Shown here in pieces: positions 7,651 to 35,365 of a stretch of DNA of 35,365 nucleotides. A program made the translations under genes and the position numbers. Within the stretch, counting starts at the first letter, position 1; every line of letters begins with the position of its first letter. The stretch spans positions 1 to 35,365 of the forward strand of contig JAAYBR010000029.1 of the NCBI GenBank assembly GCA_012730045.1, in the 5' to 3' direction. The DNA comes from Candidatus Hydrogenedentota bacterium. GTDB lineage: Bacteria; Hydrogenedentota; Hydrogenedentia; Hydrogenedentales; CAITNO01. Under the pieces are notes generated by a model. That model was not told the DNA's origin and ran no database searches. It worked only from the letters and a program-made list of their open reading frames with translations.

Positions 7651-7881
7651 CATCCCGGAGGGATGCAGGACATTAGCCGGTGGCTGAGCGCGGCGATGCC
7701 ACCGGACGTCGCCCCCCCCTCTCTCTTGGAGAACCCCGGCAGGGGTTCAGGACACGTCCGATTCCTCCTGGCTTCGGGGTCCCGCACCCCTGCCGGGGTG
7801 CCAGGAATGGGGAGAAGCGTCCAATCCCGGTGGTGTCGCTGCGCTCAACCACCGGCTAATGGCCCCCACCCCTCCGGGGTG
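7651..7881. repeat. 231-bp composite imperfect palindrome of two repeat families
   Basis: Outer element: 7651-7705 contains CATCCCGGAGGGATG and AGCCGGTGGCTGAGCG ending in GCCACCGG; its inverted partner is 7827-7881. Inner element: AACCCCGGCAGGGGTT at 7732-7747; its inverted partner CACCCCTGCCGGGGTG is at 7785-7800. Both pairs are centred on 7766. Stems differ with pairing kept (CATCCC/GGGATG versus CACCCC/GGGGTG). There is no convincing gene between 7528 and 8078; reading frames there only cross repeats. Confidence 0.85.
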
Positions 7882-7985: not shown

Positions 7986-8050
7986 ACGCGGCATCTTGCC
8001 GCGTTCTTCGGGTCAACCAAAGGCCCAAAGAACGCGGCAAGATGCCGCGT
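7986..8050. repeat. 23-bp perfect inverted repeat near the recD2 3' end
   Basis: ACGCGGCATCTTGCCGCG plus TTCTT at 7986-8008 pairs exactly with 8028-8050 across a 19-base spacer. Each arm is itself a near-palindrome (GCGGCA-TCT-TGCCGC), so it can fold as one long or two short hairpins. It lies 28 bases past the recD2 stop and may protect or end that transcript, but no T-tract follows on the minus strand. Confidence 0.8.
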
Positions 8051-18236: not shown

Positions 18237-19523
18237 TCAGACGAGCTGTTTCTTCCCCGCGTCAAAGGTGACCCGCCTGCCCTGGCGGTAGGCGGCGTCG
18301 GCGAGGATGACGGCGACGCCCTGGCGGTAGCCCCAGTCCATGCCGGCGTTGGGCGCGCCGCCGTTGCGGATGCAGCCGAGCCAGTTTTCGATGTGGGCCT
18401 GTCCGGGGTAGGGCGGGTCGGTGTCGAGGAGCTTCGTGGGCGGGATGCTGTCGTCCACGCCCTCGCTGGAGTAGACGGGGTTGCCGAGGTCGTGGCCGAA
18501 GCCCGCGCGGAGGAGGCCCTTCTCGAACATGAAGGTGGTGCTCTCGCTGTGGAGGGCGCTGCCGAAGTGGCTGTTGAACTGCGTGAAGAACCCGTCGTAC
18601 TCGAGCACCGCCACGGTCTGGTCGGGGGCGTCGCAGAGCGGGTCGGCGGAGGAGGCATAGCGCGCGCCGAAGGCCGTGGCCGCCTTCGGCAGGCCGCAGC
18701 CCGTGACGAAGTGGACAGTGTTGATGAAGTGGCTCATCCACCCACCGATGGTGCCGCTGGTGAAGTCGAGGTAGCCCATCCATTTCGCGTGCTGGTGGGC
18801 GTTGAAGGGGCGGTCGGACCGGTTGTGCAGGAAGGCCTTCCAGTCCGTCTCCGCCTCGGTCTCGGGGCCCGTGTAGCCGTTCCAGTAGGGGACCGTGAGG
18901 GACTCGGTGGACTCGATGCGGAAGAGGCGGCCAAGTTTGCCCTCCCGGATGAAGTCGCGGATGGCGGCCGCGCCCGCGCCGCTCACGCCCTGCGTGCCGT
19001 GCTGCACGACGCACTTGGACCCCTTCACGGCCTCCACCAGCGCCAGCAGCTCGGGGAGGTCCGCCGGGGTCGGCGCGATGGGCTTCTCGACGTAGACATG
19101 CTTCCCGGCGGCGACGGCGGCCATCGTGTGCGAGCAGTGGTGGTGGTCCGGCGTGGCGATGATGACCGCGTCCACATCGGCGCGGTCCAGCAGCGCGCGG
19201 GCGTCCGCGGAGACCTCCGGCTTCAGGCCGTAGAGCTTCTCGGCCTCCGCCGGGTAGGTGTCGCGGCGGTGCTTCCAGATGTCGCACACCGCCACCAGCG
19301 CCGTGTTCGCGTTCGCCGGGTGGACCATGTTCTGCATCACCCACCGGCCCCGGCCCCCGCAGCCGATCAGGCCGAGGCTGACCCGGTCGTTCGCGCCGAC
19401 GACCCGCGCCGCGCTCGCCGCGTCCATCCGCGCGAAGGTCCAGCCCGCCGCGCCCGCGGCCAGGGCGCCCCGCATGAACTGCCGCCGGCTCGTGCCGGCC
19501 TGTCCGGTCTGCGTTGTCTTCAT
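18237..19523 (-). CDS. Tat-exported Gfo/Idh/MocA-family oxidoreductase
   Basis: 428 residues. Twin-arginine signal TSRRQFMRGALAAGAAGW (11-28), then the nucleotide-binding fold with GLIGCGGRGR (51-60), IIATPDHHH and HVYVEKPIAPT (the EKP catalytic Lys), and a C-terminal alpha/beta domain. Such exported members are abundant in Planctomycetes and related groups and usually act on sugars; the substrate is unknown. The ATG at 19523 follows AGGAGA. It precedes the GH106 gene on the same strand, which suggests a joint role in carbohydrate breakdown. A large hairpin repeat lies just upstream, between this gene and the divergent hydrolase. Confidence 0.92.
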   Translation of the reverse strand: MKTTQTGQAGTSRRQFMRGALAAGAAGWTFARMDAASAARVVGANDRVSLGLIGCGGRGRWVMQNMVHPANANTALVAVCDIWKHRRDTYPAEAEKLYGLKPEVSADARALLDRADVDAVIIATPDHHHCSHTMAAVAAGKHVYVEKPIAPTPADLPELLALVEAVKGSKCVVQHGTQGVSGAGAAAIRDFIREGKLGRLFRIESTESLTVPYWNGYTGPETEAETDWKAFLHNRSDRPFNAHQHAKWMGYLDFTSGTIGGWMSHFINTVHFVTGCGLPKAATAFGARYASSADPLCDAPDQTVAVLEYDGFFTQFNSHFGSALHSESTTFMFEKGLLRAGFGHDLGNPVYSSEGVDDSIPPTKLLDTDPPYPGQAHIENWLGCIRNGGAPNAGMDWGYRQGVAVILADAAYRQGRRVTFDAGKKQLV

Positions 19524-19614: not shown

Positions 19615-19715
19615 GATGGACGATATGGACACTATGGACGGTATGGACGAAGAAGGCCGGCCGTCCGCGCCGGTCCATACTGTCCATACCGTCCATAGTG
19701 TCCATATCGTCCATC
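19615..19715. repeat. 34-bp perfect inverted repeat built from 9-mers
   Basis: Left arm 19615-19648 consists of ATGGAC plus three variable bases repeated (GAT, ACT, GGT). The right arm 19682-19715 is its exact reverse complement, and a 33-base spacer contains GGCCGGCC. It sits between divergent genes, about 90 bases from each start codon, upstream of both. The 9-base period and GGAC core match the arrays around 30.3-31.2 kb. Confidence 0.9.
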
Positions 19716-19748: not shown

Positions 19749-19757
19749 TGGTATACT
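19749..19757 (+). promoter_or_regulatory. Extended -10 upstream of the alpha/beta hydrolase
   Basis: TGG-TATACT, 42 bases before the start codon. The -35 region is GC-rich and shows no match, as expected for an extended -10 promoter. Confidence 0.5.
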
Positions 19758-19799: not shown

Positions 19800-20894
19800 A
19801 TGCTGAAAAAGGCCCTGAAGATCGCGGCGGTCGTGCTGGTGGTGCTGGTGGTGGCGCTGTGGATGCGCAAGGCGCATTATGACGCGCACTACTTCGACAA
19901 GTACGACCCGAAGGCCCCGCTGAACGTGACGGTGCTGGAGACCGAGGAGCTGAATGCGGACACGCCGGAGAAGGCGTACAGCATCGTGAAGCTGACCTTC
20001 GACGGCTACGGCGGCGAGAAGGTGCCCACGCTGATGGCCATGCCGAAGAGGGCCGACGGCAAGCGGATGCCCGCCGTAATCTTCCTGCACGGCATCGGCC
20101 AGAACAAGAACTTCCTCAGGGAGCTGGCGCCGCCCTTCTGCCAGACCGGCTTCATGCTGCTGTCCTTCGACCAGTTCATGCAGGGCGAGCGGAAGCTGCC
20201 CAAGGGCACCTCCGGCCTCGCCAGCCTTCAGGCCTTCCGCCAGCGCCCCTGGAAAACCGTCAACGAGACGCGGCGGCTCATTGACTGGCTCGCCGACCAC
20301 CCGGACGTGGACGCGCGGCGCATCTACCTCGTCGGCGCGAGCTACGGCGCCATCACGGGCAGCACGGTGCTGGCGAAGGACAAGCGCCTGCGCGCGGGCG
20401 TCATGGTCTACGGCGGCGGCGACCTCGGCAAGCTGGTGGACTCCGTGGCCACGCGCCTCGGCGTCGGTGCCGCCTTCGGCTTCATTGACGGCAAGACCTT
20501 CAACCCCGAAAAGCCGCCCCTGCCCAAGCTCACGCCGGGGCAGAACCGCATCTGCGGCGCCGTCATCAAATGCGCCACGCCGCTGGTCCGCTATTTCGGC
20601 GGGGCCGTGGACCCCATCCACTACGTGGACAAGATCGCGCCGACGCCGGTCTACTTCCAGAACGGGAAGTTCGACGTGCTGGTGCCCGCCGTGGCGGGCG
20701 AGGCGCTCCAGCAGGCCGCGGGCGACCCGAAGGAGATCATCTGGTACGAGTCGGACCATGTCGGGATTGACCTCGCGCAGACGAACGTGGTCCTGCGCGA
20801 CGGCCTGACGTGGCTGCTGAAACAGGACGACGAATTCCGGCTGGAGGAGGAGAAGGTGAAGGAGCTGCCCCCCTTCGCCATCCAGAAAACCTGA
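19800..20894 (+). CDS. Membrane-anchored alpha/beta hydrolase (esterase/acyl-hydrolase-like)
   Basis: 364 residues. An N-terminal helix (IAAVVLVVLVVALWM, 8-22) anchors it; the domain then shows the oxyanion loop FLHGIGQN (95-102), the nucleophile elbow VGASYG (Ser181), a probable acid in GKFDVLVPA and the catalytic His in SDHVGI. This is a complete alpha/beta hydrolase layout of the dienelactone-hydrolase/acetyl-xylan-esterase style. The ATG at 19800 follows GAGAGGGAG. The next gene, an exported glycosidase-like protein, starts 29 bases after the stop, so both probably act on the same exported substrate. Actual ester substrate unknown. Confidence 0.82.
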   Translation: MLKKALKIAAVVLVVLVVALWMRKAHYDAHYFDKYDPKAPLNVTVLETEELNADTPEKAYSIVKLTFDGYGGEKVPTLMAMPKRADGKRMPAVIFLHGIGQNKNFLRELAPPFCQTGFMLLSFDQFMQGERKLPKGTSGLASLQAFRQRPWKTVNETRRLIDWLADHPDVDARRIYLVGASYGAITGSTVLAKDKRLRAGVMVYGGGDLGKLVDSVATRLGVGAAFGFIDGKTFNPEKPPLPKLTPGQNRICGAVIKCATPLVRYFGGAVDPIHYVDKIAPTPVYFQNGKFDVLVPAVAGEALQQAAGDPKEIIWYESDHVGIDLAQTNVVLRDGLTWLLKQDDEFRLEEEKVKELPPFAIQKT

Positions 20895-30288: not shown

Positions 30289-31011
30289 TCAGTCGGACAG
30301 GTCGGACAAGTCAGACGGGTCTGACAGGTCTGACAGTTCTGACTTGTTCAATCCGCCTCTTGAGTCCGACCCGTCCGACCTGTCCGACTTGTCCGACCTG
30401 TTCGACCCCTGCCGTCCCCTGGACTCCACGCGCTGCCGGTAGAGACTCTCCGTGAAACCGCCCTCGCGCAAAAAACTCCGCCCCTGGCTCTCGATTTGGC
30501 GTTTCAAGAGGTAGGCGGCCTGGTGCACCGCGCAAACCATGGCGTTTGCCGCCAGTTCGGGGGATGACTGCGCCACGAAATCCGCCAGTCCGGCGAGACC
30601 CGTCAGGCGGACCGTTCCGGGCGCGGCAGGGGGCAGGTCCTCGACCCGGTCCTTCGAGAGCCGGTCGCGCATGGCCCGCGCCTCCCGTGAATCCCCCGGC
30701 CATAGCCGCAGGCCGTTCTGGCGCAGAAAACTCTCGTAGTCGCGGAGGAGTTCATCGTTCAGGCTCGCCCGCGCCACATTGGTCAGTTTCATCTCGGTCT
30801 TGCGCGACGTGGCCGCCGCGCCGCTCCCCTCGCTGATGTTGCGCACCCCGCTGCGCGCCGCCTGCACCATCTGGTCCGTCATCCGCCGGTCCTGCGGGAA
30901 GAAACGCCGGCAAAACACCACCGTGGCGTCATACACCGCCTCCGCCACCTTGTAGCTGCGGAGGTTCCGGTAGCCGCCATGCGGAAGCAGGGGGGTGCCG
31001 TCGGAGCCCAT
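30289..31011 (-). CDS. Four-helix-bundle suffix-domain protein with repeat-encoded tail
   Basis: 240 residues. Residues about 8-110 form the four-helix-bundle (23S rRNA intervening-sequence protein/S23-like) domain: YRNLRSYKVAEAVYDATVVFC, MVQAARSGVRNISEGSGA, then a helix with ASLNDELLRDYESFLRQ. A second conserved segment, FVAQSSPELAANAMVCAVHQ to SFLREGGFTESLYRQR, is the suffix domain. The last 35 or so residues are Ser-Asp-x tripeptides (SDKSDRSDGSD) encoded by the flanking 9-base array, which also supplies the stop. Such bundles bind RNA or nucleoprotein in related systems (for example Avd of diversity-generating retroelements); the role here is unknown. The ATG at 31011 is chosen where homology begins. 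Confidence 0.85.
   Translation of the reverse strand: MGSDGTPLLPHGGYRNLRSYKVAEAVYDATVVFCRRFFPQDRRMTDQMVQAARSGVRNISEGSGAAATSRKTEMKLTNVARASLNDELLRDYESFLRQNGLRLWPGDSREARAMRDRLSKDRVEDLPPAAPGTVRLTGLAGLADFVAQSSPELAANAMVCAVHQAAYLLKRQIESQGRSFLREGGFTESLYRQRVESRGRQGSNRSDKSDRSDGSDSRGGLNKSELSDLSDPSDLSDLSD
30292..30406. repeat. 9-bp repeat array, left side, in inverted arms
   Basis: 30292-30344 holds six 9-mers of type GTCGGACAG (variants GTCAGACGG, GTCTGACAG). After a 19-base gap, 30364-30406 holds about five 9-mers of the complementary type GTCCGACCT. Together they form a long hairpin. The array encodes the last residues and stop of the four-helix-bundle gene on the minus strand. Confidence 0.88.
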
Positions 31012-31045: not shown

Positions 31046-31231
31046 GTCGGACGGGTCGGACAAGTCTGACCTGTCGGACAAGTCTGACAAAAGCACTGCC
31101 GCAGGCGCCACTTTTCACCTGTCGGACGAGTCGGACCGGTCTGACTTGTCCGACAGGTCTGATAGAAGCATTGCGGCAGCCGCCACTTTCTGCTTGTCCG
31201 ACCCGTCCGACCTGTCCGACCTGTCCGATCT
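31046..31231. repeat. 9-bp repeat arrays, right side, with an interspersed longer unit
   Basis: Blocks of 9-mers at 31046-31088 and 31119-31162 (GTCGGAC/GTCTGAC types, partly reversed) and 31194-31230 (GTCCGACCT type). Between them two copies of a further unit occur: AAGCACTGCCGCAGGCGCC near 31091 and AAGCATTGCGGCAGCCGCC near 31167. The outermost block is inverted relative to the leftmost block at 30292, so the whole 0.94-kb unit has 9-mer inverted ends. It lies directly upstream of the four-helix-bundle gene and ends next to the stop of the following gene. Confidence 0.82.
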
Positions 31232-35211: not shown

Positions 35212-35365
35212 CATTGAGAGCGAAGCGAAGAAGGACGGCGGAGAGATGGCGGCGCTATCGTCATTGCGGGCGAAGCGAAGGACGACGGAGAGATGGCGGC
35301 GCTATCGTCATTGCGAGCGAAGCGAAGGACGGCGGAGAGATGGCGGCGTTATCGTCATTGCGAGC
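35212..35365. repeat. 47-bp tandem repeat with CATTGCGAGCGAAGCGAAG core
   Basis: Core starts at 35212, 35262, 35309 and 35356; the first interval is 50 bases (three extra) and the next two are 47. Units also carry GACGGCGGAGAGATGGCGGC. The array continues past the right edge. The core resembles a CATTGCGAGCGAAGCGAAG motif seen dispersed in many bacterial genomes. No gene in 35163-35365. Confidence 0.88.

Follow-up and report, generated by a model that had tools for sequence, protein, structure and literature searches.

A perfect hairpin of nine-base repeats in a Hydrogenedentota genome and its probable kinship with arrays at TIGR04258 genes

What kind of element is the long, perfectly paired hairpin of nine-base repeats that lies at 19615-19715 of the window, and does it belong with the nine-base arrays found at 30.3-31.2 kb? 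The window is the whole stretch of DNA that was analysed, 35,365 nucleotides from a Candidatus Hydrogenedentota bacterium (contig JAAYBR010000029.1). The hairpin and its surroundings comprise the following features.

18237..19523, minus strand: Gfo/Idh/MocA-type oxidoreductase gene, left divergent neighbour (gene caller and annotation)
19615..19648, no strand: left arm, four ATGGAC units at a 9-bp period, with triplets GAT, ACT and GGT
19649..19681, no strand: spacer or loop of 33 nt, with a small inner palindrome and, at 19673-19681, a fifth unit of the right-hand kind, GTCCATACT
19682..19715, no strand: right arm, four GTCCAT units, 100% complement of the left arm
19752..19757, plus strand: TATACT, promoter-like -10 of the right gene (by eye only)
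19800..20894, plus strand: dienelactone hydrolase / acetyl xylan esterase-like gene, right divergent neighbour (gene caller and annotation)

The 101-base hairpin consists of two 34-nt arms that are 100% complementary and 33 nt apart, with the arm units ATGGACNNN and GTCCATNNN. A preliminary description had seen ATGGAC plus variable triplets at a 9-base period in perfectly complementary arms, free of genes and set between divergent genes; both points are confirmed, the arms pairing over 34 nt at 100% and the gene caller placing no gene at 19615-19715. By inspection only, about 36 bp separate the end of the hairpin from the TATACT. Folded as RNA it reaches -86.7 kcal/mol (z = -11.5) and folded as DNA -49.2 (z = -11.1), values equalled by no shuffle. 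A 34-bp perfect inverted repeat with 33-nt spacing is not a chance occurrence. An Rfam search of the window gave no match, and the position between divergent genes speaks against an intrinsic terminator, that is, a GC stem with a T-run behind it at the 3' end of a transcript. The window also holds 64-bp tandem repeats of closely similar consensus (549-701 and 2564-2779), a 47-bp tandem repeat reaching the window end (35212-35365) and two inverted repeats, of 55 nt at 84% (7651-7881) and 27 nt at 96% (7986-8050).

The hairpin is one of about 43-45 such elements in the part of the genome examined. Overlapping GTCCATN3 triple matches number 221 across this genome, versus 0 for the reversed control pattern. 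In 41 stretches, mostly selected for holding arrays, we counted 43 GTCCAT array blocks, 0 of which fell within genes called by a codon-bias gene caller. These intergenic blocks lie between divergent (21), co-directional (15) or convergent genes (5) or at contig edges (2); divergent placement (21/41, 51%) exceeds the 28% expected from random positions kept 60 bp from starts (p = 0.0014). ATGGAC-loop-GTCCAT is the prevailing polarity (26 blocks, or 26 of the 31 with two arms), the reverse being found in 5, while 12 blocks have a single arm. Arms most often comprise four units (44/74), and degenerate units such as GTCCAC occur at array edges. The genes flanking the arrays have diverse functions and none in common, and a regulon of flanking genes was rejected on these grounds. 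Such arrays could be host-functional spacers between promoters, for example a supercoiling-absorbing cruciform or a transcription block, kept for that role. We think this unlikely: the excess between divergent genes and the four-unit mode would suit it, but the single-armed blocks and the lack of a shared function among the flanking genes would not.

The arrays persist at orthologous sites in a sister genome (G001), where 14 alignable orthologous arrays and a fifteenth pair make up 15 sites. Across the 14 pairs, identity was 88.7% in the flanks (within 200 bp), 85.1% in the loops and 65.7% in the triplets, the 100% identity of the hexamers being given by the construction of the labels. The triplets thus turn over fast, and their contrast with the flanks is conservative, because the alignment favours matching triplets. 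Unit numbers also differ between orthologous arrays (e.g., 4+4 versus 8+6). Retention at the same sites fits a host-functional spacer; the strong array variation between sister species speaks against one. For the 19615-19715 hairpin itself, no orthologue was found in the sister genome sequence examined.

Perfect identity of the arms had been attributed in the preliminary description to recent copying of one arm from the other or to strong selection for pairing. In this genome, triplets match between the two arms of the same hairpin at 0.45, versus 0.38 for arms of different hairpins. Most hairpins have mismatched triplets, and perfect arms are the exception, yet their excess is real: three or more consecutive arm-shared triplets occur in 2 of 34 hairpins from this genome and its sister, one of them at 19615-19715, against 0.06 expected from re-paired arms, and 6 of 10,000 shuffles reach two. 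The three matching triplets of the 19615-19715 hairpin are unusual even given that both arms carry arrays of the same hexamer. As perfect arms are exceptional, they point to recent arm-to-arm copying at this locus rather than to any general requirement for pairing. Selection for pairing finds no support as a rule, because arm triplets match little beyond composition and 12 of the 43 blocks are single-armed. Independent divergence of the arms in a sister genome had been named beforehand as the observation that would count against the early account, and this is largely what the hairpin class displays.

If palindromes already present underwent slippage and template switching, with no dedicated protein, the arrays would be a neutral minisatellite. 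The gain and loss of units between sister species, the minority of perfect arms and the degenerate units at the edges are all consistent with this, but a core that is kept while the triplets change is not. The recurrence of one hexamer core in many phyla, the dominance of period 9 and the linkage to TIGR04258 loci, all described below, also argue against a neutral minisatellite, which we consider quite unlikely.

The distribution of the arrays extends well beyond this genome. Within the phylum Hydrogenedentota, 37 of 68 genomes have GTCCAT matches, and a scan of GTDB contigs returned, among the matches listed, Lentisphaerota, Sumerlaeota, Cloacimonadota, Chlamydiota, Verrucomicrobiota, Chlorobia, Phycisphaerae and others. 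In a cultured isolate, Oligosphaera ethanolica DSM 24202 (L067, L102, L118, L151), GTCCAT arrays lie inside larger dispersed repeats. A second dispersed palindromic repeat, with GATCNGAC units, is often joined to GTCNGAC arrays (L014:4540-4585, L018:15923-15969, L037:13411-13510).

The arrays at 30.3-31.2 kb of the window enclose an ORF with matches to both TIGR02436 and TIGR04258.

30292..30407, no strand: 9-bp arrays with a GTCNGACNN core at the 3' end of the TIGR04258 gene (repeat and inverted-repeat scans)
30409..31011, minus strand: four-helix-bundle-suffix gene, TIGR02436-like plus TIGR04258, the gene-bearing element of the window
31046..31228, no strand: 9-bp arrays with a GTCNGACNN core upstream of the TIGR04258 gene (repeat and inverted-repeat scans)

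To our knowledge, TIGR04258 proteins are annotated by domain name only. Their genes are strongly associated with the arrays: 9-bp arrays were present at 35 of 50 TIGR04258 loci, versus 1 of 20 comparison loci, which come from the same phylum and carry S23-type relatives lacking the suffix (Fisher p = 4e-7). The 50 loci combine a first set of 30 with 20 more, partly taken from GTCCAT-array-rich genomes; the first 30 alone had 9-bp arrays in 22. Applied to these 30 loci, the same detector found period 9 in 22, period 7 in 2 and periods 10 and 11 in 1 each, with 0 for the other periods from 5 to 15. The core varies by locus (GTCCAT, GTCNGAC, GATCNGACN, ATAGGAC, GTGGAC). Arrays lie downstream of the gene (23), upstream of it (20) or at the domain junction (14), and 0 inside either domain; the reading frame stays open between the two domains in 42 of 46 loci, as a nine-base unit allows. 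Arrays inside TIGR04258 genes are a further point against a host-functional spacer. Junction hairpins within genes have ATGGAC-loop-GTCCAT polarity in L121, L145, L276 and L290 and the form GTGGAC/GTCCAC in L280.

The association also holds in the opposite direction. With a profile built from the TIGR04258 proteins of this genome, the family was found in loci picked solely for GTCCAT arrays, namely L076 (Sumerlaeota), L121 (Lentisphaerota), L138 and L162 (Verrucomicrobiota) and L145 (Hydrogenedentota), each with arrays beside or inside the gene. If the density in Hydrogenedentota (101 matches in 68 genomes) is carried to other phyla, well under one TIGR04258 gene would be expected in the 115 GTCCAT-picked loci (up to 8 kb). 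Another locus, L147, has a TIGR04258-family gene with GTCTGAC arrays. Among the sampled genomes, those rich in GTCCAT more often have a GTCCAT-type gene (p = 0.006), and TIGR04258 counts correlate with GTCCAT counts (rho 0.41), an exception being G027, with 72 GTCCAT matches and no TIGR04258 match. In an all-against-all BLAST of neighbouring genes, the TIGR04258 family was the sole array-linked cluster, and no other gene recurred across phyla. PF05635 was rejected as a partner, having just six matches in this genome, of which two canonical ones lack arrays. At L216:2265-2380, heptamer-like ACTTCAG repeats lie upstream of a truncated suffix-type gene.

The preliminary description had proposed that the hairpin is a non-autonomous derivative of the element type seen at 30.3-31.2 kb, matching it in period and in a GGAC core but not in the whole 9-mer. 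Kinship as a gene-free relative is a fair reading, because the 30.3-31.2 kb arrays surround a TIGR04258 gene and the family occurs with GTCCAT-type arrays across phyla; descent from a gene-bearing copy is a different matter, as no remnants of a TIGR04258 gene were found beside the GTCCAT solo arrays of this genome, for which reason gene loss leaving solo arrays was set aside. The full cores of the two differ. A gene-bearing copy with the same GTCCAT core as the hairpin lies elsewhere in the genome: contig C81 (L272; genome G000) begins within a TIGR04258 gene that has six GTCCAT units immediately ahead of the suffix domain. The 19615-19715 hairpin has inverted fixed-core arrays at a 9-bp period and is very probably one of a real and widespread class, the 9-bp arrays with a link to TIGR04258 genes. 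For the more specific reading, that it is a solo, gene-free member of an inverted 9-bp-array family whose gene-bearing members encode a TIGR04258 protein acting on the arrays, we hold the chances to be even.

A predicted model of the window's TIGR04258 protein (mean pLDDT 85.5) aligns over residues 10-177 with the S23-family structures 2gsc (Z 17.9, 114 residues, 1.9 A) and 2rld (Z 15.8, 106 residues, 1.6 A), the next match standing at Z 13.1, in a fold class where helical bundles easily give middling Z. The protein is therefore predicted to be a four-helix bundle of the S23/IVP type. Since the aligned range extends into the suffix region, the bundle's last helix may come from the suffix, in which case the junction array would sit in the loop before that helix. 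No Avd or other RNA-binding homologue was among the fold matches listed.

Could the hairpins simply be carried by ordinary miniature transposons or a system of the REP/RAYT type, with an existing transposase moving them? In G015, at least five dispersed copies share the hairpin and its loop, with unrelated surroundings where longer stretches were compared, and most have similar sequence on both sides that resembles imperfect terminal inverted repeats; G015 has no TIGR04258 match, and its copies seem to have moved within a terminal-inverted-repeat element. Several copies in a Lentisphaerae genome have loop and flanks in common, at least one of them within an inverted repeat, and an attC/integron candidate for these copies was dropped once that inverted repeat around the hairpin had been seen. 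Judged by their sequence, these two sets of copies show that hairpins can be copied. Both suit transport by a transposon, as does a weak correlation between Y1 transposase and array counts (rho 0.35). In the present genome, by contrast, hairpin flanks show little extra inverted complementarity and the loops of different hairpins look mutually unrelated, and across phyla no array-adjacent gene recurs except the TIGR04258 family; a passenger role is, in our judgement, distinctly improbable. As the loops here look unrelated, recent spread is not visible in this genome. A shared repeat encloses a GTCCAT hairpin in the Lentisphaerae AS22ysBPME_35 contigs L061, L104, L105, L106, L124, L129, L142 and L159, with the outer parts of the L124 copy making an inverted repeat, GTAACCGGTCAC... 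/ ...GTGACCGCTTAC. A further repeat, of about 210 bp (L166:6775-6984), has more than 10 copies in G015 and matches in G007 and G012, and seems to bear no relation to the hairpin.

We infer that action of the TIGR04258 protein on the arrays is the likeliest mechanism, a proposal for which belief and doubt weigh about the same. Counting against it are the arrays of G027 and the G015 copies, both in genomes that gave no TIGR04258 match, the lack of gene remnants next to solo arrays and the mutually unrelated loops of the present genome. Under the proposal, inverted pairs of four-unit arrays with a fixed core (GTCCAT in this case) would form a cruciform or an RNA hairpin, and their core would be bound by the TIGR04258 protein. 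The arrays would spread to intergenic sites as selfish or semi-selfish elements and persist there for long periods, gaining and losing units and changing triplets fast while the core is kept. Occasional re-copying of one arm from the other, by template switching at the hairpin, would yield perfect arms such as those at 19615-19715. More tentatively, and in our view somewhat doubtful, TIGR04258 proteins and inverted 9-bp arrays might work together across phyla as a mobile or self-propagating system: a split S23-type bundle protein would recognise its own arrays by their core and disperse gene-free hairpins within host genomes. No published description of the link between 9-bp arrays and TIGR04258 was found in the open-licence literature, and the evidence suggests a widespread, apparently undescribed repeat-and-protein family. 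A core-specific link of the protein with inverted 9-bp arrays gives experiments a definite substrate and would account for a class of hairpins that are dispersed in the genomes of many uncultured phyla.

How does this family compare with known systems? Miniature inverted-repeat elements (MITEs) are short, gene-free elements with inverted ends. The hairpin resembles them in this, but here the array itself makes up the inverted part; at 19615-19715, neither an outer terminal repeat nor a target duplication was seen. The TAACTGA heptamers of Beggiatoaceae are intergenic direct repeats of period 7, mostly just upstream of start codons (PMC4679880); they share short-period intergenic arrays and a patchy cross-phylum distribution with the present elements, whereas their period and direct orientation differ, and the abstract that describes them names no linked protein (PMC4679880). 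REPs are palindromes of 20-40 bp tagged at one end with GTAG or CGTC, and they lie mainly between unidirectional and convergent ORFs (PMC3733652). Many dispersed intergenic palindromes per genome, and gene-bearing relatives flanked by repeats, are common to REP/RAYT systems (PMC3733652) and the present family. In place of a single tagged stem, however, the arrays have tandem 9-bp units with variable triplets and are enriched between divergent genes; in the 19615-19715 hairpin, whose units repeat at 9 bp, no single GTAG- or CGTC-tagged end was seen.

In rRNA intervening sequences (IVS) such as those of Coxiella burnetii, terminal inverted repeats form a long stem, and gene-bearing members have an S23p ORF, of the S23 four-helix-bundle family, in the loop; short tandem repeats of variable number adjoin this ORF, heptamer repeats preceding it in Coxiella, and no function is known for S23/IVP proteins (PMC4990558). 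The present family has a comparable long stem (34 bp here) and, at its gene-bearing loci, an S23-like gene flanked or interrupted by arrays. It differs in lying between protein genes, in having arms made of 9-bp arrays, and in a protein that carries the TIGR04258 suffix, with an array often interrupting the gene at the domain junction. The 19615-19715 hairpin is not itself an rRNA IVS, because it lies outside rRNA genes and has no ORF of its own, its 33-nt loop being without an S23-type ORF; the rRNA IVS with its S23 ORF is nevertheless the nearest known thing to it.
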